Part shown: one piece after another, positions 37,062 to 39,861 of the stretch
How the letters are laid out: each line of letters begins with the position of its first letter
Position numbering within the stretch: position 1 is the stretch's first letter
Assembly (NCBI GenBank): GCA_012727555.1
Contig: JAAYGT010000027.1
Coordinates: 1-64,000, forward strand
Source of the DNA: Alcaligenaceae bacterium
Lineage (GTDB): Bacteria > Pseudomonadota > Gammaproteobacteria > Burkholderiales > Burkholderiaceae_B
DNA length: 64,000 bases
Direction of reading: 5' to 3'
Notes under the pieces: generated by a model
Seen by the model: the letters and a program-made list of their open reading frames with translations, nothing else
Told to the model about the DNA's origin: nothing
Database searches by the model: none
Translations under genes and position numbers: made by a program

Positions 37062-37340
37062 TCAGTTAACAACGAGATCACGGTAATCGGGGTTCCGACT
37101 GATGAAGCCAGCGGCGTAGGAACATTGTGGGCGAACTGTCCAGCGCATGTTGCGGGCTGTTTCGAGTGCATTGCGTGTGAGGTCGGCCGCAATGCCGCGC
37201 CCGCCCACAGCGCGCGGAACACCGGTATGCGTGATGGTCATGATGCCATCGAACACCTCGTAGTCAAGAACACAGAGTACACCGTCTTCGGTCAGTTCAA
37301 AGCGCTGTGCTGTTGCGTTGTGCGTAATGGGTCTGCTCAT
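37062..37340 (-). CDS. Small GNAT-family acetyltransferase (YjdJ-like)
   Basis: The 92-residue protein matches the minimal GNAT form: FELTEDGVLCVLDYEVFDGIMTITHTGVPRAVGGRGIAADLTRNALETARNMRWTVRPQCSYAAGFI. The R-G-G-R-G-I-A-A element binds acetyl-CoA, and the late Cys-Ser-Tyr motif is typical of the YjdJ group. The acceptor is unknown. It is followed 16 bp later on the same strand side by a small membrane-protein gene, transcribed in the same direction and upstream of it. Confidence 0.88.
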   Translation of the reverse strand: MSRPITHNATAQRFELTEDGVLCVLDYEVFDGIMTITHTGVPRAVGGRGIAADLTRNALETARNMRWTVRPQCSYAAGFISRNPDYRDLVVN

Positions 37341-37356
37341 GGTGTGGCTCCTGCGG

Positions 37357-37752
37357 TTAAAGTGTGCCCAGAAAGACCAGAATCCAAAGGGTTACCATGG
37401 AAATGATCCCGGCGAAAACGCCACCCCAAAGGCCGATGAGCGGCCACTTGATGCGGCTGGGCAGTTCGGTTGGGTCGATGTGAGCCAGCAGGCGATTGGC
37501 GTTTCCGATCAAGGCATACGTACTTTTGGGAAAGGCGATACGAAAGAAATAGTCGAGCGTGATGGCCAAACGTATGGAGACCGGGTAACGTTCCCAGGCA
37601 CGGTTGTCCAGGTAGGGGTGCCGGAATGCCTGATTTGTGGGGCGGATACGAAAAATGAAAAGATAGAGCCCGCACACGAGCGCTGCCAGACCGCACGCAA
37701 CCAGCAGCGTGAAGGTGAACGGCATGGCGTATAAAACAAAGGTTTGAAGCAT
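37357..37752 (-). CDS. Small membrane protein of unknown function
   Basis: The 131-residue protein has an N-terminal transmembrane helix (FVLYAMPFTFTLLVACGLAALVCGLYLFIF) and a C-terminal one (WPLIGLWGGVFAGIISMVTLWILVFL). Between them a soluble loop contains NQAFRHPYLDNRAWERYPVSIRLAITLDYFFRIAFP. I do not recognise the family; the loop resembles a conserved beta-proteobacterial hypothetical. The ATG at 37752 is chosen; an in-frame start exists at 37788. It is probably co-transcribed with the GNAT gene 16 bp downstream. Confidence 0.7.
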   Translation of the reverse strand: MLQTFVLYAMPFTFTLLVACGLAALVCGLYLFIFRIRPTNQAFRHPYLDNRAWERYPVSIRLAITLDYFFRIAFPKSTYALIGNANRLLAHIDPTELPSRIKWPLIGLWGGVFAGIISMVTLWILVFLGTL

Positions 37753-37863
37753 GATTCTGTGAAATGTAGTGAACGACCAGAACCCCAATCATAGCAATCG
37801 GGCACCGATTCGTTGCTTGGCGTCATGTATCAACAGGTTTGTTGTGTGTTATTTATGTGAGGG

Positions 37864-37923
37864 TGTTTCAGGTTTCTTTAAGCTGAATTGCTTTCCTGTG
37901 TTGCGCTGTTTCAGGTTTCTTTA
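37864..37923 (+). repeat. 17-bp direct repeat, two copies
   Basis: TGTTTCAGGTTTCTTTA occurs at 37864-37880 and again at 37907-37923, 43 bp apart. The second copy ends 3 nt before element A. The TTTCAGGT core recurs at 38196-38203 after element A and relates to the TCAGG array. Confidence 0.85.
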
Positions 37924-37926
37924 GAC

Positions 37927-38142
37927 GGTTCTGCCGGGCGGTGTGCGTACAGGCCGTGCATCACACGACCCCTTCGGGGTTTCCCGTTGCAAGGGCTGCC
38001 AATGGGGCGTGTCCAGAACTCGCGAACTCGACCCGATGGGTCGAGAACGTTCGCTCAAACAGCTGGACACTTGTCTCCCCATTGGCAGCCCTCGCAACGG
38101 CGTGTTCAAGCACGGCCTGTACGCACACCGCCCGGCAGAACC
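37927..38142 (+). repeat. Structured element copy A (216 nt, multi-helix)
   Basis: The element is closed by a perfect 32-bp stem P1 (37927-37958 with 38111-38142). Inside are hairpin P2 (ACCCC-TTC-GGGGT, 37968-37980), a 22-bp stem P3 with one mismatch (37986-38007 with 38077-38098), P4 GTGTCCAG/CTGGACAC (38009-38016 with 38063-38070), P5 GCGAA/TTCGC (38022-38026 with 38050-38054) and apical P6 CTCGACCC/GGGTCGAG (38027-38034 with 38038-38045). Unpaired AACTC, AACG, TCAAACAG, TTGTCT and GGCGTGTTCAAG remain. These are conserved in copy B. It may be a structured RNA read on the plus strand or a foldable DNA repeat. Confidence 0.8.
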
Positions 38143-38242
38143 TCACGATGCAACGACTTCGGAACAGTTAAAAATTCGGGGCCGTTTTGTATCGATTTCA
38201 GGTATTAAAGTAAGTGAAGTTGATCCGGACTCATGACCGACA

Positions 38243-38320
38243 TGAATCAGGCGCTACATGAATCAGGTACCAGATCAGATGAATCAGGTACTAAGTGAAT
38301 CAGGTACTAAGTGAATCAGG
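38243..38320 (+). repeat. Array of five TGAATCAGG repeats
   Basis: TGAATCAGG begins at 38243, 38259, 38280, 38296 and 38312, with periods of 16, 21, 16 and 16 bp. Copies 3 to 5 extend as TGAATCAGGTACTAAG. The array resembles iterons or a cluster of protein-binding sites. Spacers are only 7-12 bp, which excludes CRISPR. Confidence 0.85.
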
Positions 38321-38382
38321 TTCAACAAAAGCACAATCTCCGAACTTTTCAGCAAAGACCGCCCAATAAAATGACACATCCA

Positions 38383-38605
38383 GCGCTGCGGGAGGGGCCC
38401 GGTGGCACGGGTGCGCTCGAACACGCCGCTGGAATGTGCCTGGGCGGGGAGGCAAGGGTGCAGCTGTTTGACCGGGGCGTTTTCGACCAGCCGGGGGCTG
38501 GTCGATCCCGGGAGTTCTGCACCCGCCCCGACCGGGCACATTCCAGCGGGAAGCCCGAAGGGCCGTGAGAGGCGCGCATGTGCCACCGGGCCCCTCCCGC
38601 AGTGC
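38383..38605 (-). repeat. Structured element copy B (about 220 nt, inverted relative to A)
   Basis: Read on the minus strand it has the same helix order as copy A. P1 is a perfect 23-bp stem (38580-38602 with 38386-38408). P2 is GCCC-TTC-GGGC near 38552-38564. P3 is a perfect 15-bp stem (38535-38549 with 38426-38440). P4 is GGGTGCAG/CTGCACCC (38456-38463 with 38517-38524). P5 is CCGGG/CCCGG, and P6 is CGACCAGCC/GGCTGGTCG (38484-38492 with 38496-38504). CAGAACTC, AACG, TCAAACAGCTG, CTTG.CTCCCC and GGCGTGTTCRAGC are shared with A, while stems differ by compensating changes. It ends 63 bp from the prpF stop and could also act as its terminator. Confidence 0.8.
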
Positions 38606-38667
38606 GGGTCAAGAACCTTCGACAGACTGAAGAACCAGACATCCGTCAAAAGAACTTGACCCGATGA

Positions 38668-39861
38668 TCAGAAGCAGTCGCCCGGCACGCGTACCCAGCC
38701 TTCCATAAGTACGCGCGCACTGCGGCTCATGATGGCCTTGGTGACTGTCCATTCGCCGTGCTGCTGTTGTGCCTGTGCACCCACACGCAACGTACCGGAC
38801 GGGTGACCGAAACGCACCGCCTGACGCTCACCACCACCGGCAGCCAGATTCACCAGCGTACCCGGAATCGCGGCGGCTGTTCCAATGGCCACAGCCGCCG
38901 TACCCATCATGGCGTGGTGAAGTTTACCCATGGACAAGGCACGCACCAACAGGTCGATCGAGCCAGCGTCAACGGTTTTGCCACTGGAGGCCGTATAGCT
39001 TGTTGCAGGTGCCACGAAGGCCACTTTGGGTGTGTGCTGGCGTGTTGCCGCTTCATCGGGGTGCTGGATGAGGCCCATGCGCACGGCACCATGAGCACGA
39101 ATCGTTTCAAAGCTGGCCAGGGCGGCCGGATCGCCGTTGATCGCTTCCTGCAGTTCAGTGCCGGTGTAACCGATCTCGGCGGCATTCAGGAAAATGGTGG
39201 GTATGCCGGCGTTGATCAGGGTTGCCTTGAGCGTGCCAATACCGGGGACCTCAAGGTCGTCGACCAGGTTGCCGGTGGGGAACATGGCACCGCCGCCATC
39301 GCCGTCTTCTTCGGCGGCCGGGTCCATGAACTCCAGTTGCACTTCGGCGGCCGGGAACGTGACGCCGTCAAGTTCGAAGTCACCGGTTTCCTGTACCTGG
39401 CCATCGGTGATGGGTACGTGCGCCACAATGGTCTTGCCAATGTTGGCTTGCCAGATCCGGACTGTAGCGATGCCGTTTCGCGGAATACGCGCCGGATCAA
39501 CCAGGCCATTGGTAATACCGAACGGGCCGACAGCGGCTGAAAGGTTGCCGCAGTTGCCGCTCCAGTCGACAAAGGCCTTGTCGATGGACACCTGACCAAA
39601 CAGGTAGTCAATGTCGTGGTCGGGGCGAGTGCTTTTTGAAAGGATGACTGTCTTGCTGGTGCTGGAGGTGGCACCACCCATGCCGTCAATCTGTTTGCCG
39701 TAGGGGTCGGGGCTGCCGATGACGCGCAGCAACAGGGCATCACGGGCTGGGCCCGGTGTGCGCGCGGCTTCGGGCAGGTCGTCAAGGCGAAAGAACACGC
39801 CTTTGCTGGTGCCGCCACGCATGTAGGTGGCGGGGATCCTGATTTGAGCGGGGTAAGCCAT
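38668..39861 (-). CDS. prpF: 2-methylaconitate cis-trans isomerase PrpF
   Basis: The 397-residue PrpF/diaminopimelate-epimerase-like protein isomerises trans-2-methylaconitate made by AcnD to the cis form. It begins IPATYMRGGTSKGVFF, the family signature. DWSGNCGNLSAAVGPFGI holds the conserved cysteine region, and GKLHHAMMGTAAVAIGTAAAIPGTLVN is typical. The length is standard. It follows acnD by 27 bp in the methylcitrate operon mdh/prpB-prpC-acnD-prpF. Confidence 0.95.
   Translation of the reverse strand: MAYPAQIRIPATYMRGGTSKGVFFRLDDLPEAARTPGPARDALLLRVIGSPDPYGKQIDGMGGATSSTSKTVILSKSTRPDHDIDYLFGQVSIDKAFVDWSGNCGNLSAAVGPFGITNGLVDPARIPRNGIATVRIWQANIGKTIVAHVPITDGQVQETGDFELDGVTFPAAEVQLEFMDPAAEEDGDGGGAMFPTGNLVDDLEVPGIGTLKATLINAGIPTIFLNAAEIGYTGTELQEAINGDPAALASFETIRAHGAVRMGLIQHPDEAATRQHTPKVAFVAPATSYTASSGKTVDAGSIDLLVRALSMGKLHHAMMGTAAVAIGTAAAIPGTLVNLAAGGGERQAVRFGHPSGTLRVGAQAQQQHGEWTVTKAIMSRSARVLMEGWVRVPGDCF

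Follow-up and report, generated by a model that had tools for sequence, protein, structure and literature searches.

A structured repeat family with many copies per genome and compensatory stem changes in an Alcaligenaceae bacterium and its relatives

On a contig of an Alcaligenaceae bacterium (JAAYGT010000027.1), two large structured elements, A and B, lie tail to tail within the window, that is, the whole 64,000-nt stretch of DNA that was analysed. The first-pass annotation, made from the letters alone, had described them as divergent copies of one folded molecule and had proposed either a complex RNA or the single-stranded DNA substrate of a mobile system. The locus raises the question of whether A and B belong to a wider family, and whether the conserved fold is that of an RNA or of DNA.

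Fold, copies and covariation of elements A and B

The features of the locus are listed below, with positions in the window.

37927-38142, plus strand: element A, the whole folded unit from P1 foot to P1 foot, recognised by its perfect arms, its folding z score and a model match of 156.1 bits
37927-37959, partner 38110-38142, plus strand: outer stem P1 of A, 5' arm and partner, 100% complementary over 33 nt
37984-38007, partner 38077-38100, plus strand: long middle stem of A, 5' arm and partner, 96% complementary over 24 nt
38014-38021, plus strand: conserved CAGAACTC of A, a stem's last bases and the 5' side of the inner loop, recurring across copies
38055-38065, plus strand: conserved TCAAACAGCTG of A, the 3' side of the inner loop and then stem, recurring across copies
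about 38380-38608, minus strand: element B, the second copy, tail to tail with A, model match of 139.3 bits
37864-37880, plus strand: upstream repeat TGTTTCAGGTTTCTTTA, first copy of an exact 17-nt direct repeat (43 nt apart), carrying the TTCTT foot motif
37907-37923, plus strand: second copy of this exact 17-nt direct repeat, directly 5' of P1 of A
38280-38321, plus strand: short tandem array, TGAATCAGGTACTAAG with a period of 16, in the spacer that separates A from B (Tandem Repeats Finder)
38605-38663, minus strand: stretch 5' of B, lying between it and the prpF-like gene, that contains GTTCTT-like repeats and an inverted repeat

A and B folded as the same branched hairpin (z = -18.7 and -11.2, respectively), with 0 of 200 shuffles as stable; the arms of B are 37 nt long and 86% complementary. 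Near-identical copies in the related genome G125 indicated that the unit extends slightly past these coordinates, from a GTTCTT immediately 5' of P1 to approximately 25 nt beyond P1 on the 3' side. The whole unit measures approximately 220-270 nt, and core matches over the whole model alone span 126-176 nt, a few echoes and cut matches being shorter. Extra TTTCAGGTTTCTTTA-type units are repeated upstream of A and of other copies in its genome. By their translations, the genes at 28000-49550 of the window are presumably those of elongation factor P, three aconitases, PrpF, citrate synthase, methylisocitrate lyase, malate dehydrogenase and succinate dehydrogenase. A two-sequence alignment of A and B contained the unpaired motifs that had been named for them, as well as the reported exchange in P4 from GTGTCCAG/CTGGACAC to GGGTGCAG/CTGCACCC.

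Searching the element's own genome with a 124-base query from A gave 41 matches at E 10 or better, and the named motifs occurred in 26 fuzzy-motif instances among the fetched own-genome loci and the window. Four of the 26, which had no complete core, were left out, and 22 rows were kept for covariation analysis. With the covariance model R1, 64 own-genome matches were obtained at E 0.01; these represent 53 places, because 11 of them are opposite-strand echoes, in which the palindrome is matched again where a better match already lies. Several are cut by contig ends. A and B, sharing one branched fold, are thus copies of one structured element found at 53 places in this genome, and covariance models turned up further homologues in many related genomes as well.

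As for the claim that the stem differences are compensatory, 32 of the 56 pairs in the 22-copy alignment had changed on both sides, compared with a shuffled mean of 16.4. The written-out structure paired in 95.5% of 1230 cells (shuffled mean, 83.4%), and double-change cells numbered 153 (shuffled mean, 44.2); none of 500 shuffles reached any of these values. The covariation score was 0.333, against 0.102 for shuffled alignments and at most 0.079 with slid partners. Helix 4, the long middle stem, had double changes in 17 of its 24 pairs. In a wider set of 58 diverse copies (56 distinct, from 13 genera), 52 of the 56 pairs carried double changes; no shuffle reached four of the five covariation measures, and 2 of 500 reached the remaining one. 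These results show that the copies form one structured family, with many copies per genome and compensatory change in the stems. Two of the 22 rows, L027 (C33) and L026- (C49), have 5' and 3' halves that resemble different copies, reflecting either recombination between copies or misassembly; both rows stayed in the alignment.

Wobble pairs, genomic setting and the kind of molecule

In RNA helices, G-U pairs are common, both as a normal intermediate and as a standing part of the helix, whereas A.C pairs are rare. 6S RNA (RF00013) served as a control, since it resembles the element in being a long interrupted hairpin of similar size and was present in the 30 genomes tested; unlike the element, it gave one match per genome. 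Aligned and folded in one script from these 30 carriers, 6S RNA showed 192 G-U (14.9%) and 14 A.C (1.1%) in 1290 cells. The element alignments A4 and A6 showed 22 G-U and 60 A.C in 3213 cells and 69 G-U and 112 A.C in 4306 cells, respectively, so that among these closer copies G-U amounts to 0.7-1.6% of cells and lies below A.C. The relation was reversed in A5, which holds the most diverged copies (46 G-U and 25 A.C in 1368 cells). When the control's own procedure was applied, G-U and A.C came to 0.9% and 1.8% in A2, 1.1% and 2.2% in A4, 6.2% and 2.4% in A6 (only 31 pairs), and 5.3% and 3.0% in A5 (only 12 pairs). In single-copy folds of 99 copies, G-U made up 1.9% on the given strand and 3.7% on the opposite one, compared with 12.0% and 10.1% for 6S RNA; choosing the strand by wobble favoured the opposite strand in A4 and A6 and the given strand in A5. 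Thus, the RNA reading is weakened by the scarcity of wobble pairs in the closer copies, while the most diverged copies point the opposite way.

We read the low wobble content as a sign that the two arms may have been corrected against each other as DNA. Template switching under an RNA function could lower the wobble content just as well, so the wobble data by themselves leave room for an RNA role. According to the accessible text of one published study, multibase compensatory changes can arise by template switching (PMC8794818).

Searches of family databases bear on the same question. At the gathering score, Rfam 15 matched only a tRNA elsewhere in the window and nothing in nine diverged loci; the best sub-threshold matches at A and B reached 20 bits, against thresholds of 70-150. 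As the annotation had stated, no named RNA family in Rfam fits, at gathering or relaxed thresholds. A Chlorobi-1 match in an Acidovorax locus (L283; 25.2 bits, threshold 50) fell within the mirrored mate copy and was taken as chance. Of eight element-bearing frames that were translated (five from L104, L106, L109 and L112, and three from the window), none came near the cut-off of a Pfam family, and seven of the eight matched no NCBIfam family.

The setting of the copies was examined with a simple, noisy gene caller, for the copies with both flanks called. Convergent genes flanked 40 of 78 copies and divergent genes 6 of 78; the other 32 lay between tandem genes, 17 sense and 15 antisense, and one further copy had no upstream gene called. 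The upstream gene was co-oriented in 57 of the 78. Closely spaced pairs were always in the order plus then minus, as are A and B (17 of 17 in four other genomes and 10 of 10 in the own genome). That pair members are recent duplicates was rejected, as they are no more alike than other copies. Tandem arrays were more frequent within 300 bp of copies than far from them (11.7 versus 2.2 per 10 kb), a contrast that mainly compares intergenic with coding DNA. The 5' foot window of 140 distinct copies contained TTCT in 86, GACG (the complement of CGTC; tied for 11th in the list of 4-mers) in 38, CGTC in 8, GTAG in 7 and CTAC in 1; in the 3' foot window of 136 copies, GACG occurred in 16, GTAG in 12, CGTC in 9 and CTAC in 5.

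From these data, the reading that we favour, with a probability of about 0.5, is that A and B are copies of a non-autonomous DNA element of approximately 220-270 bp that is dispersed in the chromosome and behaves like a giant, untagged REP. Its conserved form is a single folded strand, whose long outer stem has a GTTCTT-type foot and leads to a three-way junction; from there arise a small hairpin and a long arm that ends in a conserved inner loop and an apical hairpin. The fold would form in DNA, either in a single-stranded lagging-strand template or as a cruciform. During replication the arms would template each other, and both would be rewritten together without wobble intermediates; such correction probably takes place by template switching. 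Arm-on-arm templating would also be expected to cause slippage, seen as tandem arrays beside copies, and deletion. The invariant loops may be kept because a putative copying or moving protein reads them; this predicted reader would be specific for the AACTC / TCAAACAG loop.

One rival is a structured RNA, that is, a small RNA or 3'-region RNA kept in many copies and selected for its RNA fold. The intricate junction, the invariant loops and the strong covariation all agree with it, as do the co-oriented upstream genes, the excess of G-U over A.C in the most diverged set, and T-rich stretches after P1, which occur only in some genera. Against it stand, besides the two wobble-poor alignments and the empty Rfam search, the antisense orientation of 15 of the 32 copies between tandem genes and the failure to find a promoter-like site in 37300-39000, the latter being a weak test. 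No intrinsic terminator was found on A or B. We consider a structured RNA unlikely. Of the two possibilities first proposed, then, the single-stranded DNA substrate fits better, and a complex RNA no longer stands as first choice given the scarcity of wobble pairs in the closer copies; the proposed link to a mobile system gained support from the dispersal of the whole unit in G125, described below.

Distribution, recent spread and loss

Model R1 matched 70 of 268 genomes in a family sample (24 of 43 genera), leaving 198 of 268 without a match at the stricter filter. The broader model R2 matched 80 of 399 genomes in an order sample (39 of 159 genera), 21 of 369 in a class sample and 10 of 398 in a phylum sample, all 10 of them inside the class (the out-of-class share of the 398 was not stated). 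These large searches used stricter filters and therefore under-counted. An exact motif scan of named genomes yielded 20 loci. Fifteen of them, from Parapusillimonas, Pusillimonas, Pigmentiphaga, other Alcaligenaceae and a Burkholderiales MAG, scored at least 70 bits with R2; the Acidovorax locus L283 and a Comamonadaceae MAG contig (L278) scored about 27 bits, and L272, L277 and L281 had no R2 match at E 0.01. A Gloeocapsopsis record (L277) and three viral contigs (L285-L287) showed the motif pattern only, with no model match at E 0.01 and an unlike fold, and were taken as chance; in viral contigs the strict motif was not found, and the looser form gave only these three chance-like matches.

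In contigs binned as Magasanikbacteria (L272:4440-4550) and Komeilibacteria (L281:4645-4755), a minimal hairpin with the AACTCGC / GCTCAAACAG loop stands beside a AAAAGTAT-type hairpin. These motif hairpins are convincing, but their fold is modest (z of -1.4 and -2.5), and the contigs may reflect either cross-phylum spread or misbinning. By eye, more distant carriers have an extra hairpin of the GTTACTTTTCTTT...AAAGAAAAGTAAC type preceding the unit, and a short P1. The Acidovorax copies (L283:6760-7440) form a mirrored pair of approximately 650-700 bp, in which each copy has an outer GTAACTTTCTTTT...AAAAGAAAGTCACC-type hairpin; on its own, that hairpin also has matches on an Ilyobacter megaplasmid and in a few further records.

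Plasmid searches with the window and L158 copies, and a phage search with L158, returned no match. Copies from L104, L283 and L112 matched 1, 7 and 1 plasmid records, respectively, all typed non-mobilizable and none covering 80%; five of the seven Acidovorax matches and the L104 one span only the outer hairpin region.

To follow the unit at unrelated loci, 20 copies from G125 were fetched out of 34 among the matches listed. Nineteen of the 20 had the same outer stem, the same core and sharp ends in unrelated flanks, the exception being L130. The unit ran from a GTTCTTAAG-type 5' end to a GTTTTTTG-type 3' end with small variation, and some copies carried extra GTTCTTAAG units or truncated 5' arms upstream. 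Mean core identity was 0.90 in G125, compared with 0.54-0.68 in three other genomes. Furthermore, when the orthologous stretches of five G125 loci were taken from five related genomes, 13 of 15 had no model match; both remaining stretches, at two loci, came from G185, the nearest relative tested (rng identity 83.7%). These results show that the whole unit spread recently in G125. Homogenisation by gene conversion could mimic part of this pattern. No base-exact empty site was found, the cross-genus spacers being too diverged for an exact junction. The element-free spacers L345 (G185) and L346 (G184) hold a short palindrome-bearing stretch, GGCACCCACAAGGGGTGCCGCTACAA in L345 and a shorter form in L346, which probably belongs to a different small repeat family.

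In the genus of another carrier, G061, the flanks of eight loci were traced into eight other species. Twelve of the 20 fetched orthologous stretches hold the element and eight do not. Several of the element-free sites carry element remnants: at least three of them (L245, L249 and L251) are deletions, because pieces of the arms remain, and in G057 nearly the whole intergenic stretch is gone at the L163 locus. The element therefore persists at orthologous loci in this genus, and its loss occurs by deletion. In 15 orthologous comparisons, the pairs common to both folds showed 60 two-sided and 11 one-sided changes, and unpaired columns differed at 48 of 851 positions; compensation is nonetheless far from complete, because 142 further differences sit where the two folds pair differently. 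At the L165/L264 locus, one species had swapped the whole core for the variant of another copy, and the locus-specific P1 stayed, with matched changes of its own. Long simple-sequence arrays, TGACGTGG x33, TGCTTACT x31 and CCAA x42, were seen approximately 150-200 bp from the copy cores at L153, L156 and L157 of G061.

This persistence would also suit a resident chromosomal landmark that moves little and that selection holds at fixed places, such as a barrier to transcription in both directions or a binding site of a nucleoid or replication protein. The preference for convergent genes agrees with such a role, as does the plasmid and phage record, in which window and L158 copies matched nothing and three other copies had only partial matches, all to records typed non-mobilizable. 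So does the finding that, of 29 loci upstream of rng, a ribonuclease-G-like gene (L288-L316), 6 loci from five genera carried a copy, always in one orientation, in a survey of 30 carrier genomes picked by the author whose draft contigs often end about 1.5 kb or less upstream of rng; some places are therefore old or favoured. Three findings speak against a fixed landmark: in G125 one variant has recently spread to unrelated loci, copies are lost by deletion, and 198 of 268 family genomes have no match at the stricter filter. We place this reading on the improbable side, level with the structured RNA.

Candidate movers and comparison with known systems

A dispersed DNA element calls attention to what might move it. 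Mobilisation as a REP or REPIN by a RAYT (Y1 HUH) transposase is suggested by the palindrome, the 5' foot motif, the oppositely oriented pairs and the intergenic residence, in all of which the element resembles REPs as the accessible text of PMC3733652 describes them. The Y1 transposase family PF01797 was present in 4 of 12 carriers (G211, G294, G423 and G764), but was not found in the other eight (the own genome, G125, G061, G126, G202, G161, G158 and G503), and a Y1/RAYT mobiliser was rejected for most carriers on this ground. In addition, the foot reads GTTCTT, with GTAG in 7 and its complement in 1 of 140 copies, and the element is at least five times longer than REPs of 20-40 bp. RAYT mobilisation is thus highly improbable. 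Less probable still is that the element is the attC site of an integron or one end of a known insertion sequence: attC sites are indeed recognised as a folded single strand, but the element is larger and branched, occurs singly or in inverted pairs rather than in cassette arrays, and has no integrase or transposase recognised by eye in its 14 largest neighbour clusters.

Those clusters came from 2277 clustered frames. Judged by eye, most of the 14 are translations of the elements themselves and the others are ordinary genes, with no mover-like gene among them; the ordinary ones we take to be an ABC transporter, a TctC-type protein, rng, a cytochrome and a gyrB-like gene.

A bolder extension of the DNA-element reading is that the copies belong to a class-wide, perhaps wider, selfish DNA family whose hereditary unit would be the folded single strand and not its sequence. 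A putative enzyme would read the inner loops and the GTTCTT foot and copy or move the strand, and the arms would be remade on each other, so that pairing would be passed on with the stem sequence free to drift. We regard this proposal as doubtful. If the minimal versions on the Patescibacteria-binned contigs are real, the family would be very old or very mobile between phyla.

Whatever its nature, the element, with its many copies ranging from orthologues up to relatives across the class, is a large natural data set for asking how long hairpins keep their pairing despite sequence turnover, a question that is usually argued for RNA genes. It also carries a warning: covariation is usually taken as proof of a structured RNA, yet on its own it may stem from DNA hairpins; the ratio of wobble to A.C pairs provides a way of telling the two apart. 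Many copies lie at contig ends, and the element may explain broken assemblies in these genomes. Finally, it points to a putative enzyme or binding protein that would act on the folded strand.

No description of the element was found in the open literature that was searched, including the accessible text of PMC12306157, PMC2267715, PMC3110155, PMC8794818 and PMC3733652, subscription journals lying outside the scope of this search. REPs, according to the available part of PMC3733652, are palindromes of 20-40 bp tagged with GTAG or CGTC. REP, REPIN and BIME sequences share with the element the dispersed intergenic palindromes, the opposite orientation of close units and the location mostly between convergent or unidirectional genes; they too are old chromosome residents, and the CGTC class of REPs has no dedicated transposase (PMC3733652). 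REPs differ from the element in length (20-40 bp versus approximately 220-270 bp) and in foot (GTAG/CGTC versus GTTCTT), and RAYT-mobilised REPs also in that most element carriers tested have no Y1 transposase. We know of no REP with a three-way junction such as the element has.

The nearest published repeat that we found in these bacteria, going by the accessible text of PMC3110155, is the BRE (Beta-proteobacterial repeat element) of Bordetella and other Betaproteobacteria, with 1-29 copies per genome. Like the element, the BRE is a chromosomal, usually intergenic repeat with signs of mobility; unlike it, the BRE is 75-91 bp long and forms tandems with few or no nucleotides between units, and it is by this description only that the two are set apart (PMC3110155). 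The same text names Correia/NEMIS, ERIC and RUP as repeat elements (PMC3110155). The element resembles them as a non-autonomous palindrome in intergenic DNA, but its outer stem varies widely in sequence with pairing kept. These three and other MITE-like palindromes are short, non-autonomous and intergenic, with conserved terminal repeats. With MITEs and transposable elements in general, the element shares the occurrence of one unit with sharp ends at unrelated loci, as seen in 19 of the 20 fetched G125 copies.
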